Assembly (NCBI RefSeq): GCF_002289565.1
Contig: NZ_NTFY01000034.1
Coordinates: 1-64,000, forward strand
Source of the DNA: Rhodopirellula sp. SM50
GTDB lineage: Bacteria; Planctomycetota; Planctomycetia; Pirellulales; Pirellulaceae
DNA: 64,000 nt
Direction of reading: 5' to 3'
Under the pieces are notes generated by a model, which saw only the letters and a list, made by a program, of their open reading frames with translations, searched no databases and was not told the DNA's origin. How positions within the stretch are numbered: the first letter of the stretch is position 1; every line of letters begins with the position of its first letter. The translations under genes were made by a program, and so were the position numbers. Positions 1,607 to 15,388 of the stretch are shown piece by piece.

Positions 1607-2515
1607 ATGCGGATATTGGATTTCGTCAAACCCAAGGAACTGTCGCGCGTCGCGCGATTGCAAATTCTGGCGCGGGAGATTGTCGAAGGCTACTGCAGTG
1701 GACGACACCGTTCACCCCACAAAGGGTTCAGTGTCGAATTTAAGGAGCACCGACAATATGTCCAAGGCGACGAGCTGAAGAATATCGATTGGAAGGTCTT
1801 CGGCAAGAGCGATCGTTTGTACATCCGCCAGTACGAAGAAGAAACGAACCTAAGGTGCCACTTACTGGTCGACCAAAGCGGTTCGATGGCCTACAAGGGC
1901 ACCCGCAGCGTCGACGGATTGACCAAGCACGAATACGCCACCCGCCTCGCCGCCGCGTTCGCCTACTTCATGTTGGGCCAGCAGGACCCCGTCGCGCTGG
2001 TCACGTTTGACAATGATCTGCGGCAACAGGTTCCGCTGCGAAGCCGTCCTTCTCACCTGCAACCGATCCTGTCGGCACTGGTCGCGGACCAATCACGACG
2101 CGACACGGACCTGGGCGGTGTGTTCCGAAAGATCGTTCCCAAGGTCGGACGGCGGGGATTGATCGTGATCATTTCCGATTCGATGGGCGACGCCGAATCG
2201 ATTTCACGATCCCTGGCTCAGTTTCGAGCCAACAAACACGAGATCATCTTTTTTCAAATCTTAGACCCTGACGAAGCGGAATTTCCGTTTTCGGGACGGA
2301 TTCAATTCCGTGACTTGGAACAGGTGATCGACGAACAGACCGTGGATGCCGCGTCGATCCGAGATGCTTATCAAGACCGGCTGGCCCAACACAACGAAGC
2401 GTTGCGCGAAGCCAGTCGACGGAGCCGCGTCGATCTGATCCCGATCACCACCGACCAACCCTTCGTCGACGTCTTGCATGAGTATGTCGCGGCAAGGAGA
2501 CGCGCGGTCCGATGA
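1607..2515 (+). CDS. DUF58 domain protein with VWA MIDAS motif
   Basis: This is a cytoplasmic DUF58-family protein of 302 residues. The family signature is clear: GFSVEFKEHRQYVQGDE at 40-56 followed by IDWKV at 60-64. A von Willebrand A metal site D-x-S-x-S lies at residues 89-93 (DQSGS) and is followed by a typical VWA alpha/beta sequence. DUF58 proteins usually work with a MoxR AAA+ ATPase and membrane VWA partners in envelope or enzyme maturation; the actual client here is unknown. It is the first gene of a coupled operon, and its stop overlaps the next start (ATGA at 2512). The missing adjacent MoxR gene is the unusual point. Confidence 0.9.
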   Translation: MRILDFVKPKELSRVARLQILAREIVEGYCSGRHRSPHKGFSVEFKEHRQYVQGDELKNIDWKVFGKSDRLYIRQYEEETNLRCHLLVDQSGSMAYKGTRSVDGLTKHEYATRLAAAFAYFMLGQQDPVALVTFDNDLRQQVPLRSRPSHLQPILSALVADQSRRDTDLGGVFRKIVPKVGRRGLIVIISDSMGDAESISRSLAQFRANKHEIIFFQILDPDEAEFPFSGRIQFRDLEQVIDEQTVDAASIRDAYQDRLAQHNEALREASRRSRVDLIPITTDQPFVDVLHEYVAARRRAVR

Positions 2516-4779
2516 GTCTTCTCAACGCAGCGTTGGCGTTCGGCGCGTTCGCATTCACGATCCCGCTGATCATCCATCTGTTCTTCCGCAGCCGGTTCAA
2601 AACGGTCGACTGGGGTGCGATGTACTTGCTCGAAAGCGTGGTGCGCGTCAATCGCCGTCGTATGCAGGTGACCAATCTGCTGTTGTTGTTGCTGCGATGT
2701 GCGATCCCCGTGCTGTTGGCGTTCTGTCTGGCTCGGCCCGTTTGGACGGGGCTTCGCGCTCTCGCCGGCGATGCTCCGAAAACACTGGTCATCGCGATCG
2801 ATGATTCCCGCAGCATGTCATTGACGCCGCCGGGCGAACCGTCGCGCATCGAAGTCGCCAAACGAGAACTTCGAACCGTGCTAGCGGATCTGACGCGACG
2901 CGATGAAGTGATGTTGGTCCGCGGATCTCGATTAGGCGCCGTGCCGTCCAAAATGGGTGTTTCCGACGCGTTGGCGGGCTTGCGAAAAATCGATGCCCAA
3001 GGCAACGCCGTGTCAATCGGTCAACTGATCGATGCGGCCATTGCGGCCGCCGACGAAGGCTCGCATCCCAGACGCCAAATCCTGGTCGTGTCCGACTTTC
3101 AAGCCGGCGCGGTCGATACCGCGACACTGGAGGCGGCTCGTCGCATCGCCGAAACGAACAAGATCGAAGCGGAAGCCGATGGCGGCAAGCAACTGGTCAT
3201 CGACATGCTGGACGTGGGCACCCACTGGGACGATCTGGCCAACGTGTCGGTCGATGCGGTGACCATCGATTCGCCGGTGATCGTCAGCGAGCGTTCGGGG
3301 GTCTACACGGCAACACTACGCAATGCGTCCGACCTGCCCGCCAACGACTTGCGATTGATCTGGTCGATCGACGGAAAACCGTTGGAACCGCGAGTGGTTT
3401 CGATCGACGCGAAATCAACATCGACCAATCGGCTGACCCACACGATCGATCAGGCCGGGATCCATGAAGTCGCCGCGACAATCGATCGTGGTGACGTGCT
3501 GGTCGACGACAACACGCGCAGCGTGGCCGTCGAAGTGATCGACGAAGTCAACGTGTTGTTGGTCGACGGACGGCCCGGCAAGGAGCCGCTCAGCGGACAA
3601 GCCGACTTTTTGGCCATCGCGCTGAGCCCCTTTGCCTTCGGCGGTGACGACCGTCCCGATCCGGTCCGCGCCGCCGTCGTCACGTCGAGACGGTTGGAAT
3701 CCGCACTCGATGAAAACCCGACGCGTGTCATCGTGCTGTGCGGCGTCGGACAACTTTCCGATTCGGTCAAGCAACGGATGGCGACCTTTGTCGATCAAGG
3801 TGGGGCGTTGGTCGTGTTCGACGGACCGAGTCTGCGTCCGGAGCTTTACAACCAGGTGTGGCGAGACCAAGACGCCGTGCTGTCGTTCCCCGCATCGCTC
3901 GGCGACGTGGTCGGAAATCCCGAGGTCGACAGCGGTGCCGCCGAAGAGACGTTTGCCATCGATCAGCCCACCTCCCTGTACCAGCCTTGGAAGATCCTGG
4001 CCCGCGGAAGTGACAACCCGATGTCCGCCGTCAACTTGTCGGCCTACCGAGCCTTCACGATCGACGAAGCGGACGAGAGCGATTCCACCCATCGGATTGT
4101 CTTGCTGCGAACCACCGACGGAGCGCCGTTGGCGGTGATGGATACCGTCGGCGACGGGACGGTCGTGCAGTTTGCGATCTCGGGAAATGCCGCCTGGACC
4201 AATCTGCCGCTGCGCCCCGTCTTCCTGCCGCTGATTCAGCAGCTGGTTCTCGATTTGGCCGGCAAACGCAGCGACGCCATGATTCAAGTGGGGCAACCGA
4301 TCGTGATCAACCCGAATGATTGGCCTGCCCCCAAGACGGAAGGGGGCGCGGAAACCCGTACCCGTTTCGCCGCACGCACGCCGCGAGGACAATTCGAACT
4401 CGAGACACCCGACGCGGGTGAACCCGTGCGTCTGACGGCGACTTATTCCCCCGGCGTTTACACGATCCAGAAACGGTTGACCGACCTTGCCGATCCGGAG
4501 AAATCCGAAACCATGGAAACCCTTCGGATTGCGACGGTCGACGCGTCCGAATCAATGTTGGTCGATGTCAGCCAAGAACGTCAACAAACATTGGCCAACA
4601 TTCTCAACGCGCAGGTGTTCGAGAGCGCCGTGTTGCTGCAAGACGCCGACCGTTCGCGTTCCTTCGGACGCGAGATCTGGCGGGTGATTTTGGTGGCGCT
4701 GTTGATCGCATTGGTCGCCGAGCTGTGGTTGCAGCAAAATCTGGTCGCCCGACGGAAAATCACGGGAGGCACGTCGTGA
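2512..4779 (+). CDS. BatA/VWA-domain membrane protein
   Basis: This is a 755-residue membrane protein. An N-terminal BatA-type region (residues 1-80) has two hydrophobic helices flanking the basic loop RSRFKTVDWGAMYLL. A VWA domain follows, with MIDAS residues D97-x-S99-x-S101. The middle of the protein resembles an adhesion-like fold followed by a glutamine-amidotransferase-like segment (VLLVDGRPGKEPLSGQ and a later GGALVVFDG). A C-terminal transmembrane helix lies at about 722-740. The domain order matches planctomycete BatA proteins encoded after DUF58. The VWA domain is probably exposed outside the membrane. The start overlaps the previous stop and the stop overlaps the next start. Confidence 0.87.
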   Translation: MSLLNAALAFGAFAFTIPLIIHLFFRSRFKTVDWGAMYLLESVVRVNRRRMQVTNLLLLLLRCAIPVLLAFCLARPVWTGLRALAGDAPKTLVIAIDDSRSMSLTPPGEPSRIEVAKRELRTVLADLTRRDEVMLVRGSRLGAVPSKMGVSDALAGLRKIDAQGNAVSIGQLIDAAIAAADEGSHPRRQILVVSDFQAGAVDTATLEAARRIAETNKIEAEADGGKQLVIDMLDVGTHWDDLANVSVDAVTIDSPVIVSERSGVYTATLRNASDLPANDLRLIWSIDGKPLEPRVVSIDAKSTSTNRLTHTIDQAGIHEVAATIDRGDVLVDDNTRSVAVEVIDEVNVLLVDGRPGKEPLSGQADFLAIALSPFAFGGDDRPDPVRAAVVTSRRLESALDENPTRVIVLCGVGQLSDSVKQRMATFVDQGGALVVFDGPSLRPELYNQVWRDQDAVLSFPASLGDVVGNPEVDSGAAEETFAIDQPTSLYQPWKILARGSDNPMSAVNLSAYRAFTIDEADESDSTHRIVLLRTTDGAPLAVMDTVGDGTVVQFAISGNAAWTNLPLRPVFLPLIQQLVLDLAGKRSDAMIQVGQPIVINPNDWPAPKTEGGAETRTRFAARTPRGQFELETPDAGEPVRLTATYSPGVYTIQKRLTDLADPEKSETMETLRIATVDASESMLVDVSQERQQTLANILNAQVFESAVLLQDADRSRSFGREIWRVILVALLIALVAELWLQQNLVARRKITGGTS

Positions 4780-7187
4780 CGGTTTCTCCCTTCGCATCGA
4801 TCCGCTTCGCCGGCGATTTGCCGGCTTGGCTCGTCGCAATCCTCGCGCTGCTGGCGGTCACCGGGGTGGTCGTGCTCTATGCGCGAGAATCACGTTCGAT
4901 TCGATCACCGTACCAATACTTGCTGCCGGCGCTACGCGGAACCGCCGTCGCACTGGTCGTGTTCATCTTGGCCGGACCGGTTTGGCACCGTCGACAGGTG
5001 ATCGGAACGCTCGGGCGGGTCGTGTTTGCGGTCGATACCTCACGGAGCATGTCGCTGACCGACAGCCAATCGGAGACCACGGCGGACAATCGATTGCAAC
5101 GCGCGACGGCATCGCTGCTTGGAAACGCGACCGAGCCGGGTTGGCTGGAGCAGATCCAGAAGACTCATGCGATCGATGTCATCGCCTTCAGTGACACCGA
5201 TCCCGTCTCGATCTGGTCTTCCGATGACCAAACGGAACTGCCGACGGCCTTGGATTGGGCGGCTGATGGCCCGGCGACCAACCTGTCACGCCCGCTTCAA
5301 TCCATCCTTTCGACAATCAACTTGGACGCCGCAGCCGGTGATTCCTCCGCCGGTGATTCGGCAGCCAGTGACGCCGCAGCTCCGTCGTCTGACGGCTCGA
5401 TTGATTCGGTCCGCCGTGCCGCGATCGTGTTGATGACCGACGGTCGCGACACCGAGACGGCGATGCGATTGGAACGGTCACCACCCTCGGTCGCCAATCA
5501 GCTTGCCAGCGGCGGAACGACGGTCAACACGCTGGGGTTCGGTTCCGTGGACGAACCACCCGATGTCGGAATTGTCGAGGTCATCCGCCCGGAAACCGTC
5601 GCAGCCGAAGGCAAATTGGCCGGTCAAGTGATTGTCAAACAGTTCGGCCGGCAAGGCGAACCGGTTTTGGTACGGATTGAATCGGACGGGGAAACCGTTT
5701 GGCAAAAGTCGATCAGCGTTTCGAACACGGGGCAACAGGCCGTGCCGTTTGAAATCGACGTCGGCCAGATCGTTCAATCGCTTCGTTCACGATTACCGCG
5801 CGGCATCAATCGAACCAACGAAGTCTTGCGTCTGGTCGCAACGGTCGAATCCGGCGGTCCCGATTACTCGGCGGACAACAACTTGTCGCACTTCCGTGTC
5901 GCGGCGTCGACGCGCAATCGTCGTCTGTTGATCGTCGACGGATCCAGCCGCTGGGAAACGCGATACTTGAAAAATCTGTTCGTCCGCGATCCCGCGTGGC
6001 AGGCCGACGTGGTCTTATTCGGCCCCGGAACATCCAGTCCCAAACTGCAACGTGGCAGCGCTCCGGGGCAGTTTCCCGCGACGGCAGAAGAGATGGCGCA
6101 GTACGATGCGGTTCTGTTGGGTGAAATCGACGCCTCGCAATTCACGACCGGCGACCGAGGGCTGCTGTCGCGCTTCGTCGCCGGTGGCGGTGGTCTGGTG
6201 ATCATTGACGGACGATTCGGAAAATTGCGCGCGTTGGCCGCGACCGAGTTCGGAGAATTGATGCCGGTTCGTTATCGAGGAACCGGAACCACGCCGATGC
6301 CCAGCCGATTGCAGGCGACACCCGCCGGGCTGGAGCAACCCGCGCTCGGCTTGATCGATCAAACCGACCAACTGGATTCGTTTTGGCGTTCGCTGCCGGC
6401 GCCCAAGTGGAGTGCGAACGTCGAATTGAGTGAAGGCGGTGAGTCCTGGGGGGAAACGGTGTCGGACAGCGGCATCCGCACACCGTGGCTCGCGACGCGA
6501 ATGTACGGGGCGGGACGCGTGTTCTATTTCGCCTCCGATCAAACCTGGCGCTGGCGTTACAAGGTCGCCGATCGATTCCACGCCCGGTTTTGGAATCAAT
6601 TGGTCGTCGCGGCGATGGAACCGCCGTTTTCCGCCAGCGACCAGTACGTCTCCATCGGCACCGACAAGGTGGAATACCGGGGCGGAGAGTCGGTCGCGGT
6701 CCGCGCCCGACTCCGCGACGTCCGTGGCAATCCGGTCGCCGATGCCACCGTCGATGCGCTGGTCATGCGTGACGGCAACAAGATCGCGACGGTGCCGTTG
6801 AGTGTCGATAATCCAAACCGCGGCACCTATGCCGGTCAGGTGCCGCCGCTTCCCGGCGGTGAATACTCGGTTCGAATTCGTGCCAGCGGGTTCGATGAAT
6901 CCGCCCTGCTGGCGTCGACGCCGATTTGGGTCACCGAAGACCATCACGCCGAAATGCAACGCATGAGTCTCGATGAAGACGCGTTGCGTCAAATCGCATC
7001 GGCCGGCGAGGGAACGTACATCCATGAATCCGATGCCGAGCGGATGCTGGAATTACTCAAACCGCTCTCCAGCGGCACCGTCATCGAAACCGACACGGTG
7101 CTTTGGCAATCGTATCTGTGGTTTTGGTTGATCATCGCGTTGCTGACCATCGAATGGTGGTGTCGCAAACGAGCCGGATTGGTCTAA
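4776..7187 (+). CDS. Second VWA/GATase-like membrane protein
   Basis: This 803-residue membrane protein starts at GTG 4776, which overlaps the preceding TGA. A ribosome-binding stretch (gggaggc) lies at 4764-4770, so this start is preferred over an in-frame start at 4725 inside the previous gene. Two N-terminal helices (about 17-36 and 55-68) precede a VWA domain with MIDAS D87-x-S89-x-S91. A class I amidotransferase-like region begins near RRLLIVDGSSRWE, and one helix near the C-terminus (SYLWFWLIIALLTIEWW) re-enters the membrane. It is probably a paralogue or partner of the preceding protein, with two membrane VWA subunits side by side as in Bat/aerotolerance-type operons. The client is unknown. 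Confidence 0.85.
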   Translation: MTVSPFASIRFAGDLPAWLVAILALLAVTGVVVLYARESRSIRSPYQYLLPALRGTAVALVVFILAGPVWHRRQVIGTLGRVVFAVDTSRSMSLTDSQSETTADNRLQRATASLLGNATEPGWLEQIQKTHAIDVIAFSDTDPVSIWSSDDQTELPTALDWAADGPATNLSRPLQSILSTINLDAAAGDSSAGDSAASDAAAPSSDGSIDSVRRAAIVLMTDGRDTETAMRLERSPPSVANQLASGGTTVNTLGFGSVDEPPDVGIVEVIRPETVAAEGKLAGQVIVKQFGRQGEPVLVRIESDGETVWQKSISVSNTGQQAVPFEIDVGQIVQSLRSRLPRGINRTNEVLRLVATVESGGPDYSADNNLSHFRVAASTRNRRLLIVDGSSRWETRYLKNLFVRDPAWQADVVLFGPGTSSPKLQRGSAPGQFPATAEEMAQYDAVLLGEIDASQFTTGDRGLLSRFVAGGGGLVIIDGRFGKLRALAATEFGELMPVRYRGTGTTPMPSRLQATPAGLEQPALGLIDQTDQLDSFWRSLPAPKWSANVELSEGGESWGETVSDSGIRTPWLATRMYGAGRVFYFASDQTWRWRYKVADRFHARFWNQLVVAAMEPPFSASDQYVSIGTDKVEYRGGESVAVRARLRDVRGNPVADATVDALVMRDGNKIATVPLSVDNPNRGTYAGQVPPLPGGEYSVRIRASGFDESALLASTPIWVTEDHHAEMQRMSLDEDALRQIASAGEGTYIHESDAERMLELLKPLSSGTVIETDTVLWQSYLWFWLIIALLTIEWWCRKRAGLV

Positions 7188-7203
7188 CGGACAGGAAACA
7201 GAA

Positions 7204-10200
7204 ATGGCAACGGTAAGTGAACACTCGAGGGCTCGCGCGGGGCTGGATCCGATCACCACGCGCGCGCTGGCCGCCTTCCGTCGACGTCGCGGAATGCTGC
7301 TGGTCGCCCGCGCGATCGGGGTCGGGCTGCTGGTCTTCATTTCGCTGGCACTGTTGCTGGCGACTTTGGATTATCTGTTCTTCTTTAGCGACGCGGTGCG
7401 CTGGACGCTGAGCATCGGGATCTACGTGGCAACCGCGGCGGCGATGTGGCTGACGGGGTTCTCGTCGTTCGCCGTCCGCGACGAGTTGGAAATTGCACGT
7501 CACGTGGAAAGCGTCGCGCCGAATTTGCGCGAGAACCTGGTCGCCGCCGTCGAATTGGCCGATCCCCATTCCACCAACGGATCACCTTATTTTCGACGCC
7601 TGTTGCAAAGCCGCGTCGCGCGGCGGATCGCGAACGTTGATGTGGGCCAGGTGTTGCCACTGCGATTGGTTCGCCGCTGGGTGCTCAGTGGATCCACGGT
7701 CGCCTTGTTTTGCGTCGCGTTGATGTTCATCCCCTCGGCGCAATTCGGCCGTCGCTTCGCCCGCGCCGCACTTCCCGGGTTCGCCATCGAGCGAGCGTCT
7801 CGAACCAAAGTCACCATCCTGGAACCGTCTCCGATGTCGGGCTACGTCGCCGAGCGCGATGCGGTGGGCGTGATCGTGCGCGTCGAGGGTGCCGAAGCGG
7901 ACGATGTGATGCTGCACTGGCGCAGTGCCGATGGAACCTCCGGCGAGTCGCTGATGACGCCGCGGATGGACGCGTCCGCGTTTCGGCCCGGTGAATCATC
8001 CGACGCGTCGACCGCCTCTACCGGTCCAGATGCATCCGAGGATGTTGCGATCGATGACGCACCCGGCGGACGATTTGCGGCAAACTTGTCGGTTGGCTCG
8101 GTTCCGATCCAATATCGCATCACGGCCGGTGACGCGATCACGCTTTGGCACGAACTGACGCCTTTGCCCCGACCGCGCGTCGTTCGCTATGAGAAACGCT
8201 ATCGTTTGCCGACCTACGCCCGACTCGATGATCGCACCGCCGATGAAGAACACGGGGACTTGAAAGCGTTGCAGGGCACGACGGCGGAGGTCACGGTGAC
8301 GTTCGACCAACCCGTCGAAAACCCCGTCGTCCGATTCGGTGTCCGCGGCGCTCGCAGTGAAATGGAGCCCGTCGACGAATCCTCGACCAAGTTTCTGACT
8401 CGGATTTCCATCAAGACGTCCGGTCAATATCAAGTCGATGCGACCAGCGTCCGCAGCGGACTGGATAACCCGTTCAGCCCGACCAACATGATCACCCCGG
8501 TCCTGGATACGCCCCCAATTGTCCGTTGGTCAAATGAAACCAAACCCAGCCAACTGGTGTCGTCATTGGACGTCGTCGAGATGGCCGCTTATGCCGCCGA
8601 TGATCTGCCGCTGGAACGCGTTATCCAAGAAGTCGGTGTCAACGAACGGAGATTCGAATCGTATGCGTTGCCGATCGAAGCGGAGAATCGAAAGCTGGAT
8701 CTCAGCTGGTCCTGGGACATGATGCACCGCTTGGGCGAAAACTCGCGTACGCCACAGCTTTCCGCGGGAGATCTTGTCCGAACACGACTCGTCGCCATCG
8801 ACCGCCGGGGAGCGCGAACCGAATCGCCCCTGATCGAGTTTCTGATCGCCGGCGATGGCTTCGACGCCGATCGTCACCAGTTTTTGCAACCGTTCGCCCG
8901 GCAAGTCGAACGCATCATGAAGTGGTCCCAGCAATCCAAGCAGCTCGCGGAGGGACTGAAGGAAATCGGCAACTCGGGAAACTTTGACGCCCTTAAAGAG
9001 ATCAGCAGCCAGTGGAAACCGTTGCAGCAGGAATCGGTCGCGTTGGTCAAGAGTCTGTCTGAAACGCTGACCGCCACCCAAAACACGGCCAGCGCGTCGA
9101 TGACCGAATTGGTCGGCAGAGCCATCATCGACGTCGAGACACGGTTGGATGGCCAAATCAAACAGATGCAATGGCTCTCCGAAAATCAGGCAGACGTTTG
9201 GAGCAAGGAGCACGAAAAGAATCGCCAAGCCGTCGGCCGCGAGGCAAACCAGACGGCCTACCAATGTGATCGGTTGGGTGAGTTTGTCCAGGCACGATTC
9301 GCGCTCGCCCTGTCTGCGTCTCTGTATTCCGACGTCAGCATGCTGCGTAACGGCGTCGACCGCTTGGTCGATGACATGCCCCGGCAGCGTCTGCCCCGCT
9401 ACCTGACCCTGGTGGCCGGTCAATTGGCCGAAATCGATCGGCTGATCGCACAATACGAGTCACTGTTATCCCCACAACATGCACAGCATCTTTCCGGTGA
9501 CTCCTGGATGCGTTGGTCCCAGCGTTGGAACCTTCAAATCGAAACTCTGTTAGAAGACCAGGCGCGTCGCGATCAAGTCTACGCCGTGCTGAAGTCGTTG
9601 CGTGATGAAGTCAAGGACAAACCCCAGCACGTCGTTTATTCTGCGACCCACGACACCGTATTGCGTTGGGGGCGTGACCTTCGCAAAGAAATCGGGTACC
9701 TGGCGGACCTGACACGCCGTTTGTTTGACGCCGGACGGGAGTGGCAAGCGGCCCAGAAAGCGGCCCAAGGCGATCGCAATGCCGACGATGCGGTCAAACA
9801 CGGGTTGGCGGTCCAGTGGGGACAGCTCAAATGGCAGACCGAACGAAATCGTTTGATGGTGCGTGCGGCTGGCCAAGAGAAACTCAATCGCGCCAAATCC
9901 AAAGTCGATTTAAAGTATGCCGCCGATCAAAACCTGTTCGTCCGCGCGATCAAGAACGTCACCGAAAACGGTTACCAAGATTACGAAGACGAACCGGCCG
10001 ATCGGGTCCTGAACTCCATCGCCGCTGCGATCGGGACGCTGCAGGCGGCCAGCGACATCGCCGCGGCGCGTGAGGACTGGCTGGCGATCCGGGAAGGCGA
10101 GAGCCAAAGCGATGCCGCCCCGCTGCGTAAGATCTATCATCCGGTTTGGTTCAAGTTGCAAGACATCCGGATCGAATTGGGAGTCCGTTACTTGCGACAA

Positions 10201-13083
10201 TCGCAAGTCGACTGGGTGACGGTGTTGCGGCCGATCGACGAGACACGCCACAACGAGGATCACACCCAGGCCAACAACCGAATCGATCCCCGACGTTGGA
10301 ACCTGGACCGGTTTGCCTCGGCCGGTAAACCGCTCGAATCGCTCGCACGTGACCTGCAAGTCGGACTCGTGGGCCTCTCCGAAAAACGGGAACAGGCGCG
10401 AGATGTGTTGCGACGTTACGTCTTGACGCTTTCTGAGCAGGCACGTGAAGCCGCTGAAAAAGCAGAACAGGCCAAACAAGAAACCGACCAACGGCCCGAT
10501 GCCAGCGAAGAATCGGCCGAGGAGGTCCAACCGCTACAAGACGAAGCGATCGAGAAAGCGACCGAGACCATCGGGGCACTGATCGACCAAGCCAACACGA
10601 CCGACATCATCGATGACCAGCAGCGGGAAGTCGCTCGTGATGCCGACGCCGCCGCGGAATTAATCGCCGAAGCGGTCCAGGACACCAAAGACGCTCTCAA
10701 AAAAGCTGAAGTGGCGCAATCCGATCCGCAACGCGACGAGGCACTCGAATCGGTCGAACAAAAACTCGGTGAACTCTCCGAGCGACTCGAACAAACCGCC
10801 GATCACTTCGAAAAGATCGAGAACGGCGAAGACATCGCGGAGTCACGAGAACGGTTGCGTCAAGCGGAAGCAGAATTGAAAGCCGCCGAAGAACTGGAGC
10901 AGCGATACGACAGCGCCAGCGAGATGGCCGAGGCAGCCAAACAAGACCCACGCGAACTGTTGCGTCAACTCGAAGAAGAACTTCAACGCAATCAACCGAT
11001 GCAGAACGAGCTCAGCGAGATTGCCGAGAACATCGTCGGTGAGGTCGCCGAGAACCTGAAACAGGCCGCCAAGGATGAAGACGAATTGCAACGTCGACTG
11101 GAATCCGACGACGACGCCTTCGCCGAACAAAAGCGTCAAAAACAACTGATGCTCGACGAGTTTATCGGGAGGGCAAAAACGTTGCGGGACCGGACGCTTT
11201 CCACCGCATCCAAAACGGCCGGCTGGGGCGACGATCCGAAAACACGTGAATCGATTGAACAAACACGCCAAAAACTGAACGACGCGATCAACCAGGCCGA
11301 ACAGGTCTCCCGCGGCAAACCCACCCTCAGCGAACTGCAATCGGCAACACGCCGGATGCAACAGGATGTCAAACAGGCCGCCGATGCAACCCGGCAAGCT
11401 GGCCAGCAATTGGCCCAACGGGCGGACAAGGATCTGCACGGTGACAAACAAAAACGCAACACCGCCGCGGAGTCGATGCAGCGCAACGAGAATCAACTGC
11501 GCAATGACGAGCTTCGCGCACTCGACCAACAGCGAAAGAAATGGGCTTCAGCGGAAAAAGACGCCGGACGACGGGTCCGCGAAAGTGAACAGAAAAAGCG
11601 TAGTGCCGAAAACGCGCTCAACCGAGAGCAGGACAAGCTGAAGAAGAATCCTGACAACCAGTGGCACAAACGAGAGGTAGAAAAACAACAGGACTTGATC
11701 GCTGAGGCGTCGCGGGCGATCGAACAGTCACGCCAAACCAAAGACCTGGCAACGGAGCGCGGCAAAGAGGCTGTCAAACGCGCGAATGAAATCAATCAAA
11801 CCAAAGTCGCGCCGCTGGACAAAGCCAACCCGGCTGCCCAATTGGGAGAAAAAGTGGCCAGCAACGCGGCAGCGCGGCTACAGCAACTCGCCCAAGAACT
11901 CGGTCAGCTTGCCGACGATTCTGACATCGCTCCAGATCTCCGCGCCACCTCCGAGTCGGCCGAAAGCCTGGCCAAACAGCAGGGGTTGGTCCAAGACAAT
12001 GTGCAAGCCGCCACCGATGATCTGGCCCGCGCGTCCCGCCATGAAGCCCGCTTGGAAAACGACCGGGCGGCCGAACAACTCGCCCAGGCAGCACAGCAAA
12101 CCGACCAGATCGCTGGGCAGGCCGCCAAGCAAGCCGGGGAAGAACTGGAGCAAACCGCCGACGAAAGTAACAACGCCGCCGCTGCCGCCGAGGCGCTGCA
12201 AGATGCGAAGGAAAAAATCGCCGCTCAAGCCGAAGCGGTTCAGTCGATGCTCGGTCAATCGCAGTCGCCCGACGGTCAGTCCAGCCAACCGCCCGGTGAA
12301 TCGGGGGATTCAGACAGTCCGGCGACGAGTCAATCGGCCAGCGCCGACGCGACCCAATCGCCCAGACAGCCCCCCAGTCAGCCGCCCAGTCAACCATCCA
12401 GCCCAACCCCGTCGGGCAATGCATCCGAGTCCGGTCAACAACCTTCCTCGGGGCAGCAAGCCGCGCAGCCCGGCCAACCCTCCGGCAACCAGCCGTCTGC
12501 CAGGCAAATGGCTCAGACACTCGATGAATTGGACCGATCTCTCGCCGCTCAGGCATCTCAGTCCGCTCAACAGCCGTCCGAGTCCCAATCGGCATCGGGA
12601 CAACCGTCCGAAGCTGAGCAGGGACAGCCGGCCAGCGGACAAAGCGGTAACGAACCCGGCGGCCAACCGTCCAACGATCCCAACGCAGACGGTCGCCCCG
12701 GATCCGGCCAGCCGCCGCAAAACGCCGTCGAAGCTTCGCCGACGCTCGCCCAGATGCTCGAAGCCCAAATGCAGCAGGCTGCCCGCGAACGACTAAAAAG
12801 TCTGCAACAGGCACAAGCCGGCGAGCAACCCGGCGAACCGTCCAACTCCGATGCCTCGTCGCCCAACCCGGTATCCGAATCGGGCGAAGGCGACATGCCG
12901 GACGGCCCCGACGAGATCGATCTGATCCAAGGCGCGATCGCCGACGGTGATTGGGGCGACCTGCGGCGCCGCGGCGTCGACGACGCCGCACAAGGTCGTT
13001 CGATTCAAATCCCGCCCGGTTACTCGCGCGAGATCAAAGCCTATTTCAAAGCGCTATCCAAACGGGCCGCGGAGTCGAAATGA
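7204..13083 (+). CDS. Giant membrane-anchored coiled-coil protein (DUF4175-like N-terminus)
   Basis: This is a 1959-residue protein. Three hydrophobic helices (about 31-55, 61-80 and 157-175) sit in an N-terminal region like that of DUF4175 proteins. A beta-rich segment (about 190-450) resembles extracytoplasmic Ig-like modules. A long helical region runs from about 560. Roughly 1080-1690 is a highly charged heptad-rich coiled coil (A, E, K, Q, R), followed by a low-complexity S/Q/P/G linker to about 1890. A conserved-looking tail follows, containing GDWGDLRRRGVDDA and IPPGYSREIKAYFKALS. A ribosome-binding stretch (aggaaa) precedes the start, 16 bases after the previous gene. It probably scaffolds the VWA proteins at the envelope; this is inference. 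The function is not known. Confidence 0.82.
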   Translation: MATVSEHSRARAGLDPITTRALAAFRRRRGMLLVARAIGVGLLVFISLALLLATLDYLFFFSDAVRWTLSIGIYVATAAAMWLTGFSSFAVRDELEIARHVESVAPNLRENLVAAVELADPHSTNGSPYFRRLLQSRVARRIANVDVGQVLPLRLVRRWVLSGSTVALFCVALMFIPSAQFGRRFARAALPGFAIERASRTKVTILEPSPMSGYVAERDAVGVIVRVEGAEADDVMLHWRSADGTSGESLMTPRMDASAFRPGESSDASTASTGPDASEDVAIDDAPGGRFAANLSVGSVPIQYRITAGDAITLWHELTPLPRPRVVRYEKRYRLPTYARLDDRTADEEHGDLKALQGTTAEVTVTFDQPVENPVVRFGVRGARSEMEPVDESSTKFLTRISIKTSGQYQVDATSVRSGLDNPFSPTNMITPVLDTPPIVRWSNETKPSQLVSSLDVVEMAAYAADDLPLERVIQEVGVNERRFESYALPIEAENRKLDLSWSWDMMHRLGENSRTPQLSAGDLVRTRLVAIDRRGARTESPLIEFLIAGDGFDADRHQFLQPFARQVERIMKWSQQSKQLAEGLKEIGNSGNFDALKEISSQWKPLQQESVALVKSLSETLTATQNTASASMTELVGRAIIDVETRLDGQIKQMQWLSENQADVWSKEHEKNRQAVGREANQTAYQCDRLGEFVQARFALALSASLYSDVSMLRNGVDRLVDDMPRQRLPRYLTLVAGQLAEIDRLIAQYESLLSPQHAQHLSGDSWMRWSQRWNLQIETLLEDQARRDQVYAVLKSLRDEVKDKPQHVVYSATHDTVLRWGRDLRKEIGYLADLTRRLFDAGREWQAAQKAAQGDRNADDAVKHGLAVQWGQLKWQTERNRLMVRAAGQEKLNRAKSKVDLKYAADQNLFVRAIKNVTENGYQDYEDEPADRVLNSIAAAIGTLQAASDIAAAREDWLAIREGESQSDAAPLRKIYHPVWFKLQDIRIELGVRYLRQSQVDWVTVLRPIDETRHNEDHTQANNRIDPRRWNLDRFASAGKPLESLARDLQVGLVGLSEKREQARDVLRRYVLTLSEQAREAAEKAEQAKQETDQRPDASEESAEEVQPLQDEAIEKATETIGALIDQANTTDIIDDQQREVARDADAAAELIAEAVQDTKDALKKAEVAQSDPQRDEALESVEQKLGELSERLEQTADHFEKIENGEDIAESRERLRQAEAELKAAEELEQRYDSASEMAEAAKQDPRELLRQLEEELQRNQPMQNELSEIAENIVGEVAENLKQAAKDEDELQRRLESDDDAFAEQKRQKQLMLDEFIGRAKTLRDRTLSTASKTAGWGDDPKTRESIEQTRQKLNDAINQAEQVSRGKPTLSELQSATRRMQQDVKQAADATRQAGQQLAQRADKDLHGDKQKRNTAAESMQRNENQLRNDELRALDQQRKKWASAEKDAGRRVRESEQKKRSAENALNREQDKLKKNPDNQWHKREVEKQQDLIAEASRAIEQSRQTKDLATERGKEAVKRANEINQTKVAPLDKANPAAQLGEKVASNAAARLQQLAQELGQLADDSDIAPDLRATSESAESLAKQQGLVQDNVQAATDDLARASRHEARLENDRAAEQLAQAAQQTDQIAGQAAKQAGEELEQTADESNNAAAAAEALQDAKEKIAAQAEAVQSMLGQSQSPDGQSSQPPGESGDSDSPATSQSASADATQSPRQPPSQPPSQPSSPTPSGNASESGQQPSSGQQAAQPGQPSGNQPSARQMAQTLDELDRSLAAQASQSAQQPSESQSASGQPSEAEQGQPASGQSGNEPGGQPSNDPNADGRPGSGQPPQNAVEASPTLAQMLEAQMQQAARERLKSLQQAQAGEQPGEPSNSDASSPNPVSESGEGDMPDGPDEIDLIQGAIADGDWGDLRRRGVDDAAQGRSIQIPPGYSREIKAYFKALSKRAAESK

Positions 13084-14654
13084 TGCATCAGGGCCGAAAC
13101 TCCATTGCAGAAACGCACGAACGCTCCAACACCCGGAGCATCCCGCCTACAACGCCACCCTCCCGGCAGGCATCGGTGTCTACACAACTTGAGTCACGCG
13201 CCCTGGCAGGCGACGTTGTGAAGCATTTTTTAGCGGCAGGGCGCGAGCCCTCCGGTGTTTTGGCAAAGTTGAAGGACCGGAGGGCTCGCGCCCTGCCGCT
13301 AAAACCTCAAGAAACACATGGGAAAAATGCTTCACAGCATTGCCTGGCAGGGAGGGGCGAGCGCAGCGAGGGGAGGGGCGAGCGGTCGTCGCTGAGCGAT
13401 TCCCAGCCACAGAGACCCTCCCCGCGTCGTCGTAAACTCCTCCGCGACCCTCCCAGAGGGAGGGTGACTTCGACGGTTGCGACTTGTGTCGCTACCGATG
13501 CCTGGCAGGAGGAGCGAGCGGAGGTCGAAACGTCAATCGCCGGTGCAACATCAACCGCAGAGTCTCCCAGTCTCGGTCGCCGCGACCTGTTCGCGCTCGC
13601 CGGCGCCATGGCCGGACTGCTGGCAACTCCGGCATGGTCCGATGAGCCACCGTCGATCGACAACCTGTACGTCGACGACGAATTAGACCAAGCCTGTGAG
13701 CGTGCGATCGAGTTTCTACTGCGCAACCAACGTGCCACCGGAGCGATCACCGATCGTGGTCACGAACTTGCGCTCACTTCGCTGGCGATCATGGCGCTGG
13801 CGGCGATCGGCACCGAACCGGCCGAGCCCACGCGACGCGGGCGCGCCATGCGTGCCGCACTGGACTTCGTGCTCAAACCGGACCACCAAAACGACTCCGG
13901 GTATTTCGGCGCCTACGACGGGTCGCGGATGTACGGCCACGGGATCGTCACGTTGATGTTGACCGAAATGCTGGGCATGGGCGCGACGCCGAAACAAAAT
14001 GAGCTGATTCATGAACGCCTCGAACGCGCCCTGCGGTTGATCCTTTCTTCCCAAGCGGTCCGGAAAGAACGAAAACTCGAAGGCGGATGGAGGTACTCGC
14101 CCCAATCACGCGACAGTGACCTGTCCGTTTCGATCTGGCAACTGATGGCCTTGCGCTCGGCCAAGAACGACCAGATGAATGTGCCCAGCGAAGCGATCGA
14201 CAAAGCCCTCGATTACCTGCGCAATTCCTTCACCGGACGACGCACGGCGAGCGGGGTCGGCGAAGGCGGTTTCAGCTACACGCCGGGGCAATCACGCCCC
14301 TCGTTTACGATGACCGCAGCCGGATTGCTGGCGATGCAGGTCTGTGGACAATACGACGCTCCCGAAGTGGCCGCGGCGGCGGATTGGTTGTTCAGCCATC
14401 GCCCCAAGACCAACGAACGTTACCTGTTTTACGGACTGTATTACTACGCCCAAGGCATGCACCAGGTCGGCGGCAAGTACGCCGACGAATCCGGCCGCGT
14501 CGTCTCCTCGTTGTTGTTGCCGCGACAACGTAGCGACGGATCGTGGATGTCGCCCGGTGGCGAAGAGCGTAACGTCGGCCTGGTCTACTCCACTTCGCTG
14601 GCGTTGCTTTCCCTCTCCGTGCGCTACCATTATTTGCCGATCTATCAACGATGA
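13080..14654 (+). CDS. Squalene-cyclase/prenyltransferase-fold protein
   Basis: The core of this protein (from about 13650) is an alpha-alpha toroid of the prenyltransferase/squalene-cyclase repeat type, with repeated helices such as ELALTSLAIMALAAIG, GHGIVTLMLTEMLGMG and SFTMTAAGLLAMQ. The catalytic DxDD motif of true squalene cyclases is not seen, so enzymatic cyclase activity is doubtful. A twin-arginine-like export signal (GRRDLFALAGAMAG) begins near 13575. The annotated start ATGATG overlaps the previous stop, but residues 20-130 are translated from an intergenic-type repeat cassette. A functional start may therefore be closer to the Tat signal, for example GTG 13464. It is the fifth gene of the operon. 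Confidence 0.78.
   Translation: MMHQGRNSIAETHERSNTRSIPPTTPPSRQASVSTQLESRALAGDVVKHFLAAGREPSGVLAKLKDRRARALPLKPQETHGKNASQHCLAGRGERSEGRGERSSLSDSQPQRPSPRRRKLLRDPPRGRVTSTVATCVATDAWQEERAEVETSIAGATSTAESPSLGRRDLFALAGAMAGLLATPAWSDEPPSIDNLYVDDELDQACERAIEFLLRNQRATGAITDRGHELALTSLAIMALAAIGTEPAEPTRRGRAMRAALDFVLKPDHQNDSGYFGAYDGSRMYGHGIVTLMLTEMLGMGATPKQNELIHERLERALRLILSSQAVRKERKLEGGWRYSPQSRDSDLSVSIWQLMALRSAKNDQMNVPSEAIDKALDYLRNSFTGRRTASGVGEGGFSYTPGQSRPSFTMTAAGLLAMQVCGQYDAPEVAAAADWLFSHRPKTNERYLFYGLYYYAQGMHQVGGKYADESGRVVSSLLLPRQRSDGSWMSPGGEERNVGLVYSTSLALLSLSVRYHYLPIYQR
13218..13335. repeat. Nested inverted repeat inside the coding frame
   Basis: The inner arms 13231-13256 and 13276-13301 are perfect 26-base inverted copies. 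The outer arms 13218-13230 and 13323-13335 are perfect 13-base inverted copies. Together they form a long cruciform-capable element. It falls within the 5' part of the squalene-cyclase-fold gene and keeps the frame open. Confidence 0.9.
13340..13475. repeat. GC-rich CTCGCTGCGCTCG-type repeat segment
   Basis: This segment has the form of an intergenic repeat: cctggcaggg, gcgagcgcagcgagggg, then accctccc near the end. The same elements occur in reverse order at 58100-58140 in a noncoding gap. Here it lies inside the 5' part of an open coding frame, immediately after the nested inverted repeat. It supports the idea that the N-terminus of this gene was invaded by repeat DNA. Confidence 0.6.
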
Positions 14655-15388
14655 CCGAAATCCATACTGACGGCCCCGAGTCGATCGGTGACGTCCAGCC
14701 ACTCGATTTCCTGGTTGTCGCCCCGCATCCCGATGATGCCGAGATCGGGATGGGCGGAACGATCGCCAAGATGATTCGCCAAGGCATGCGGGTCGGAATT
14801 TTGGATCTGACCACCGGGGAACCGACGCCGCACGGCAGCGAAACCATTCGCCGCGCCGAGACGGTCCGTGCAACCGAAATCCTGAATGTCACGTGGCGCG
14901 GCAATGCGGGGCTGGTCAACCGAGAGTTACAGCACACGCTCGAAGCGCGAAAGCGAATCGCCAGCTACTTTCGGATGCTTCGTCCACGCTGGGTGTTCGC
15001 GCCGTATTTTCACGACGCCCATCCCGACCACGTCGCCGCCACCGAACTGATCGAAGCGGCCCGGTTCTGGTCCAAACTCAGCAAGACTGACATGCCGGGA
15101 GAACGGTTTCATCCCGAACGAACGTTCTATTACTTCTGCATTCATCTGCGTCTGGCCGTCCAGCCCAGTTGGATTGTGGACATCAGCGAGACGATGGACC
15201 AAAAACTCGAATCGATCCGCGCCTACGAAAGCCAATTCGTCGTCGGCCGCCCGACCGACCCGCCGACGATGCTCGACCGCATCGAAACCGACGGAGCCTA
15301 CTTCGGCAACCTGATCGCCCGCCGCTACGGAGAACCCTTCGCCACCAAAGAGCCTTTGGCCCTGACGTCACTGAGGGATGTGTTTTAG
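14651..15388 (+). CDS. bshB1: Bacillithiol biosynthesis deacetylase BshB1 (PIG-L family)
   Basis: This is a 245-residue PIG-L/LmbE-family Zn-dependent deacetylase. BshB-type enzymes remove acetate from N-acetylglucosaminyl-malate during bacillithiol synthesis in the cytoplasm. The zinc-binding signature PHPDDAE lies at residues 27-33, and the second zinc histidine region DAHPDHVAA is at about 118-126. Length and flanking residues (GMGGTIAKM, LDLTTGEPTPHG) fit BshB1 well. Its ATG overlaps the preceding stop (ATGA), so it is co-translated with the VWA operon although its thiol role looks unrelated. No bshA or bshC is in this window. A deacetylase for another N-acetylglucosaminide is the main alternative. 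Confidence 0.88.
   Translation: MTEIHTDGPESIGDVQPLDFLVVAPHPDDAEIGMGGTIAKMIRQGMRVGILDLTTGEPTPHGSETIRRAETVRATEILNVTWRGNAGLVNRELQHTLEARKRIASYFRMLRPRWVFAPYFHDAHPDHVAATELIEAARFWSKLSKTDMPGERFHPERTFYYFCIHLRLAVQPSWIVDISETMDQKLESIRAYESQFVVGRPTDPPTMLDRIETDGAYFGNLIARRYGEPFATKEPLALTSLRDVF

Follow-up and report, generated by a model that had tools for sequence, protein, structure and literature searches.

A MoxR/DUF58/VWA-type operon of Rhodopirellula sp. SM50 with a probable cognate MoxR ATPase encoded elsewhere in the genome

The stretch of DNA analysed here (the window, 64,000 nucleotides long) belongs to Rhodopirellula sp. SM50. Among named organisms, 'Planctomycetes bacterium TBK1r' and Stieleria sedimenti come closest to it, with DUF58 proteins 99% identical. 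The window and contig C75, one of 146 contigs in a 9.8 Mb genome, share their first base, and the window carries six open reading frames (g1 to g6, Table 1) that all run in the same direction on the plus strand and are joined, in order, by ATGA, GTGA, a 16-base gap, ATGA and ATGA. An earlier note described them as a coupled operon without a MoxR ATPase that may encode an envelope machine of unknown energy source. The coupling is real, but we consider it likely that the operon encodes a membrane machine of the MoxR/DUF58/VWA type that receives its cognate ATPase in trans, from an intact gene on another contig of the same genome.

The first three genes give the operon this character. Gene g1 encodes a DUF58 protein with a metal ion-dependent adhesion site (MIDAS), as expected of MoxR/DUF58/VWA operons, and g2 has the double N-terminal anchor of bat-like operons, with PF07584 and TIGR02226 both over cut-off. 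The MIDAS motif D.S.S is aligned in all 37 homologues of g1, in 36 of 37 for g2 and in 31 of 35 for g3; three of the other g3 homologues have D.T.S and one is unaligned, and the VWA score of g3 itself, 21.6, is below cut-off. A hydropathy scan finds no transmembrane segment in g1, three each in g2 and g3, and two in g4, and in g2 two N-terminal segments are followed by the VWA domain and a C-terminal segment. The VWA domains of g2 and g3 are predicted to be periplasmic, a topology that the basic short loops of these proteins would suit.

Table 1. Coordinates of the operon genes and neighbouring features in the window
Feature	Position	Strand	Family match or detail
g1, DUF58 protein, 302 residues, predicted cytosolic, MIDAS-type DQSGS	1607..2515	+	PF01882, 146 bits
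g2, BatA-like membrane VWA protein, 755 residues	2512..4779	+	PF07584, PF13519; TIGR02226 (two_anch), 71.6 bits
g3, second membrane VWA protein, 803 residues, DUF7408 segment	4776..7187	+	PF24157, 30.5 bits (over cut-off)
g4, coiled-coil protein, 1959 residues, membrane-anchored, Ig-like beta domains followed by a long Ala/Gln/Glu-rich stretch	7204..13083	+	
g5, alpha/alpha toroid of squalene-cyclase-like fold, likely to be exported, with an uncertain start	13080..14654	+	
g6, PIG-L deacetylase, BshB1-like, 245 residues	14651..15388	+	TIGR04001, 198.3 bits
RarD-like gene, divergent, outside the operon, between operon and contig end	364..1314	-	
Dispersed palindromic repeat in the N-terminal part of g5	13232..13300		arms 13232-13255 (+) and 13277-13300 (-)

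Gene order was compared in a genus sample of 14 genomes (G000 to G013, the window's genome included). The same six-gene order, with no adjoining MoxR, occurs in 13 of the 14; the exception, G008, is a fragmented draft of 1210 contigs in which only a piece of DUF58 is detected. The junctions are conserved as well, with ATGA between g1 and g2 in all 13 loci, ATGA or GTGA between g4 and g5 in all 13, and ATGA between g5 and g6 in 11, so the overlaps are not a matter of chance. In other genera the DUF58-BatA-VWA core persists, and matches to g4 and g5 are found in many loci, not all. A one-off arrangement is thereby rejected, and together with the predicted membrane anchors this conservation supports the idea of an envelope machine in the earlier note. 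In two genomes of genus label g12, G024 and G086 (L067, L161, L175 and L176), MoxR and DUF58 are on opposite strands and only 21-23 kb apart, and neither g4 nor g5 has a match next to g3.

As the earlier note observed, no MoxR adjoining the operon is encoded in the window, and none stands at the operon head in any of the 13 genus loci. Because the window starts at the very edge of contig C75, it might be argued that the absence is an artefact of assembly or of the window's limits, the gene lying just outside in the same transcription unit. However, a minus-strand gene at 364-1314, which we take to be RarD-like, intervenes between operon and contig edge, 292 bp from the DUF58 start; it is divergent and closes the transcription unit upstream. 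Of 12 genus relatives, 10 have a tblastn match to it ahead of the operon, and none of these 12, five of them single-contig assemblies, shows a MoxR in the roughly 5 kb of upstream sequence examined. A MoxR just upstream of the window is refuted on these grounds, and we give the artefact practically no credence.

The genome as a whole is rich in candidates: a search for its MoxR genes finds 15 strong ones (AAA_3), along with 12 DUF58 genes above 95 bits and two weaker DUF58 matches. Judged by their positions, nine of the 15 adjoin a DUF58, whereas the other six stand apart from one. At G000:C59:137634-145376 (L094), a single contig carries two neighbouring MoxR-DUF58 pairs of opposite orientation. 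In genomes of the same family, G019 and G020, a MoxR is encoded immediately upstream of the DUF58 type of this operon, and the closest MoxR in the window's genome is an unlinked, intact gene of 348 residues (G000:C11:15446-16489) with 72% and 68% identity to these two operon-head proteins. Compared with bat-like operons, the MoxR is thus missing from the head of the operon and a cognate one is present elsewhere in the genome.

This relationship is borne out by a tree of 59 MoxR proteins, built by a quick method with the Shimodaira-Hasegawa-like approximate likelihood ratio test (SH-aLRT) as its only support measure and with 10 hand-chosen outgroup rows. In this tree, 33 unlinked and 16 operon-head MoxRs fall in one clade (SH-aLRT 99) that excludes three paralogues from the window's genome, C59, C1 and C63, the last two on long branches. 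All 49 members of the clade have four ATPase motifs. The ratio of nonsynonymous to synonymous substitution (dN/dS) of the orphan MoxR is 0.025-0.05 in six same-genus pairs, with dS above 1 in one pair. The C11 protein is accordingly the orthologue of the operon-head MoxR of other genera, kept under strong purifying selection; the locus has lost its linkage to MoxR and not the ATPase itself. The phrase "without a MoxR ATPase" in the earlier note thus applies to the neighbourhood and fails for the genome, and the energy source that it called unknown has a candidate that is present, intact and conserved.

The main unlinked branch of the MoxR tree has a support of 100 and comprises genus labels g1, g12, g62, g67, g68, g70 and g72. 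The unlinked state requires two changes on this tree, one on the main branch and one within genus label g11; a DUF58 tree of 42 rows likewise requires two, with a support of 99 for the main unlinked group. Both trees cover part of the family, and G051 and G052 (genus label g31; loci L264-L267) were left out of them. G051 has no MoxR match in the 7 kb upstream of DUF58, and G052 has no DUF58 match in the 10 kb downstream of MoxR. Two separations as an explanation for all unlinked genomes are therefore rejected, and because this further case is added to the two on the trees, the linkage was lost at least three times, one of the losses predating the divergence of seven genera, the window's among them.

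A second search used a collection of named genomes, of which 80 of 138 loci were kept; since the collection overlaps the first set, it serves as a check of method and not as independent evidence. A MoxR is found directly upstream in none of 26 loci at a DUF58 identity of at least 64%, in 29 of 30 at 50-60% and in 3 of 24 below 45%. The statement of the earlier note that DUF58 and BatA genes normally sit beside MoxR is therefore too strong, since DUF58 without a nearby MoxR is common outside this group. Bacteroidetes and Ignavibacteria, among others, are represented in the distant loci of this kind.

The pairing of the two gene types was followed across 241 genomes of the family, with the MoxR type defined at E<=1e-132 and the DUF58 type at E<=1e-80. 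MoxR is present in 109 and DUF58 in 106 of these genomes: both in 96, MoxR alone in 13, DUF58 alone in 10 and neither in 122 (Fisher p 2.6e-40, with kinship ignored). The 96 genomes with both comprise 42 in which MoxR immediately precedes DUF58, 13 in which the two share a contig but are separated by 21 kb to 7 Mb, and 41 in which they are on different contigs. The 13 same-contig cases prove separation, which different contigs alone would not in fragmented drafts. Looser searches settle 15 of the 23 single-gene genomes. Ten of the 13 genomes with MoxR alone then yield a DUF58, as two pieces with an intervening stretch in G141 and six genomes of genus label g70, adjacent to MoxR in G055, on another contig in G052 and as a contig-edge fragment in G117. 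As for the DUF58-only genomes, G097, G235 and G237 have an adjoining MoxR at 57-60% (that of G237 cut by the contig end), and G211 and G131 have MoxR fragments at 78% and 64%.

An alternative assignment of the ATPase should be considered at this point, namely that the operon is served by another MoxR of the genome, or by none, and that the C11 protein has taken up a new role, for example with a neighbouring histidine kinase. The 15 strong MoxR genes leave room for this, as do two genomes that keep MoxR without a detected DUF58 of this type. Moreover, the C11 gene is divergent from a gene for a 610-residue FHA-GAF-HisKA-HATPase protein (L088:5450-7279, minus strand), and such a kinase match adjoins the MoxR in 31 of 37 genomes examined from the main unlinked clade; it is missing in G004, G216 and G219 (MoxR at a contig end) and in G180, G194 and G183. 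No kinase is found beside any of 16 operon-head MoxRs, at least 1.9 kb upstream being in view in 11 of those loci. However, the orphan MoxR is orthologous to the operon-head proteins, is mostly retained or lost together with the operon and has a dN/dS that gives no sign of relaxation, and we regard the alternative as unlikely. The kinase can also be accommodated with supply in trans: the energising of the machine might, since the separation, be regulated separately and controlled by a signal. This reading is less likely than not; if it were true, operon and motor would form two modules under different control.

By family precedent, chiefly that of NorQ-NorD, a mechanism for the machine supplied in trans can be proposed. 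The C11 MoxR, presumably a hexamer, would act with the cytosolic DUF58 protein on the cytosolic side of the membrane, which the MIDAS-bearing g2 and g3 would cross so as to place their VWA domains in the periplasm. The g4 protein would serve as an envelope scaffold, from which Ig-like domains and an extended coiled coil project, and exported g5, an alpha/alpha toroid, might bind or present the client. By hydrolysing ATP, MoxR would then remodel the assembly of VWA proteins, in the way that has been proposed for NorQ and NorD.

Several points weigh against supply by the C11 protein. The link between the orphan MoxR and the operon comes from sequence comparison, and the topology and functional steps of the machine are predictions. 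The genome's own paralogues are represented in the MoxR tree by C59, C1 and C63 only, and the co-occurrence statistic carries no correction for phylogeny. Of the distant DUF58 loci (below 45%, L238-L263), 21 of 24 have no MoxR match in 4-6 kb. After the looser search, G134 and G216 keep MoxR but lack a DUF58 of the operon's type, the sole DUF58 match in G047, adjoining MoxR, is at 38%, and G008, G126, G208, G210 and G218 have DUF58 with no MoxR of this type; G208 is rated 98% complete. With 15 strong MoxR genes, six of which do not adjoin a DUF58, cross-talk is possible. Finally, in a Francisella moxR mutant the levels of Bat proteins were reportedly unchanged, as cited in PMC3557215.

In operons of the bat or MRP type, made up of genes for MoxR, DUF58, VWA and TPR proteins, MoxR has been described at the front in Riemerella (PMC11834572). 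The present system resembles this type in the MoxR-DUF58-BatA-VWA core of related genera, the MIDAS motifs and the membrane VWA proteins, but its MoxR is unlinked, and a scaffold akin to DUF4175 proteins and an alpha/alpha toroid take the place of TPR or BatD proteins, families matched by none of the six operon proteins in family scans. NorQ-NorD likewise pairs an ATPase of the MoxR class with a VWA protein that carries a MIDAS, and acts on a membrane client (PMC13036017). Unlike NorQ-NorD, however, the operon has two membrane VWA proteins, a DUF58 protein and a large scaffold, and it includes no gene for a nitric oxide reductase. The MoxR-vWA ternary conflict systems, reported in planctomycetes among others (PMC7159879), share the pair of MoxR and VWA, but DUF58 is not mentioned in the main text of that paper, and a Pfam scan of the six operon proteins gives no match to a VMAP, iSTAND or FtsH-type partner. 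Among the papers listed on MoxR with DUF58, BatA/VWA, Planctomycetes or Rhodopirellula, and on DUF4175, no title or opening of an abstract describes a separated MoxR of such an operon.

Partners of MoxR and VWA proteins are often assigned by neighbourhood, and here the separation is kept across seven genera, and other members of the family have undergone more. Orthology to operon-head MoxRs, taken together with co-occurrence, offers a way to pick out the likely partner from 15 MoxR genes. This gives a defined set for the study of the planctomycete envelope, consisting of MoxR, DUF58, two VWA proteins, a giant scaffold and a toroid protein.

As regards the scaffold, the window's g4 protein has no Pfam match at 0.001. 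Three of 19 members of the g4 family match PF13779 (DUF4175), the best at 9.1e-10, and g4 appears by this family comparison to be a distant DUF4175 relative; AdvA, a cell-division protein of Acinetobacter, is the subject of the one paper found for DUF4175 (PMC7481262). In an NCBIfam scan of the 19 members, the matches are confined to models of collagen-like adhesins, with a single member matching each model. A model of residues 1-589 (mean predicted local distance difference test score, pLDDT, 85.3; predicted template modelling score 0.61) runs from helices through tandem beta domains to the start of a long helix. Its matches in the PDB are of Ig type with low TM-scores, so no partner is deduced from the structure search.

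The g5 protein has PF13243 and PF13249 scores just under cut-off, and its model (window 13551-14651, mean pLDDT 89.6) is an alpha/alpha toroid with PDB matches to terpene cyclases, GH76 and complement C4. The fold and these scores recall squalene-hopene and terpene cyclases, but g5 has a single toroid domain, its GH76 TM-scores are as high, and D.DD, which we take to be the catalytic motif of squalene-hopene cyclase (DXDD), is found in none of 21 aligned rows; all 21 end in LPI.Q[R/K]. From the overlap start g5 has 524 residues, vs 369-447 in the other 12 genus loci. Its N-terminus is about 150 codons longer than the 369-379-residue forms of relatives, and the extension contains a dispersed repeat, whose 24-base arm has 131 forward and 114 reverse exact matches in the genome (245 in all; none for the backward control). 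A member of this repeat family thus sits in frame within a coding gene. For these reasons the start of g5 is uncertain and may be ATG 13080 or an internal codon such as GTG 13464. A presumed twin-arginine, signal-like stretch begins only near residue 167, which also suggests that the true start may be internal.

Finally, g6 owes its BshB1 name to a score over the TIGR04001 cut-off of 182.5 bits, and it is within the operon in all 13 genus loci. These two facts might be taken to mark the operon as one for bacillithiol biosynthesis. However, BshC has no match in the genome and no BshA is over cut-off there (best 121.3 vs 273.7 bits), so a bacillithiol role is unsupported; in addition, g6 has no match in 37 other DUF58-bearing loci outside the genus, several of which end before its place, and among the loci compared only those of this genus have it in the operon. 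Such a reading is very improbable. In G180, a g6 homologue with 69% identity is encoded about 4 kb from the orphan MoxR (L172:980-1714).

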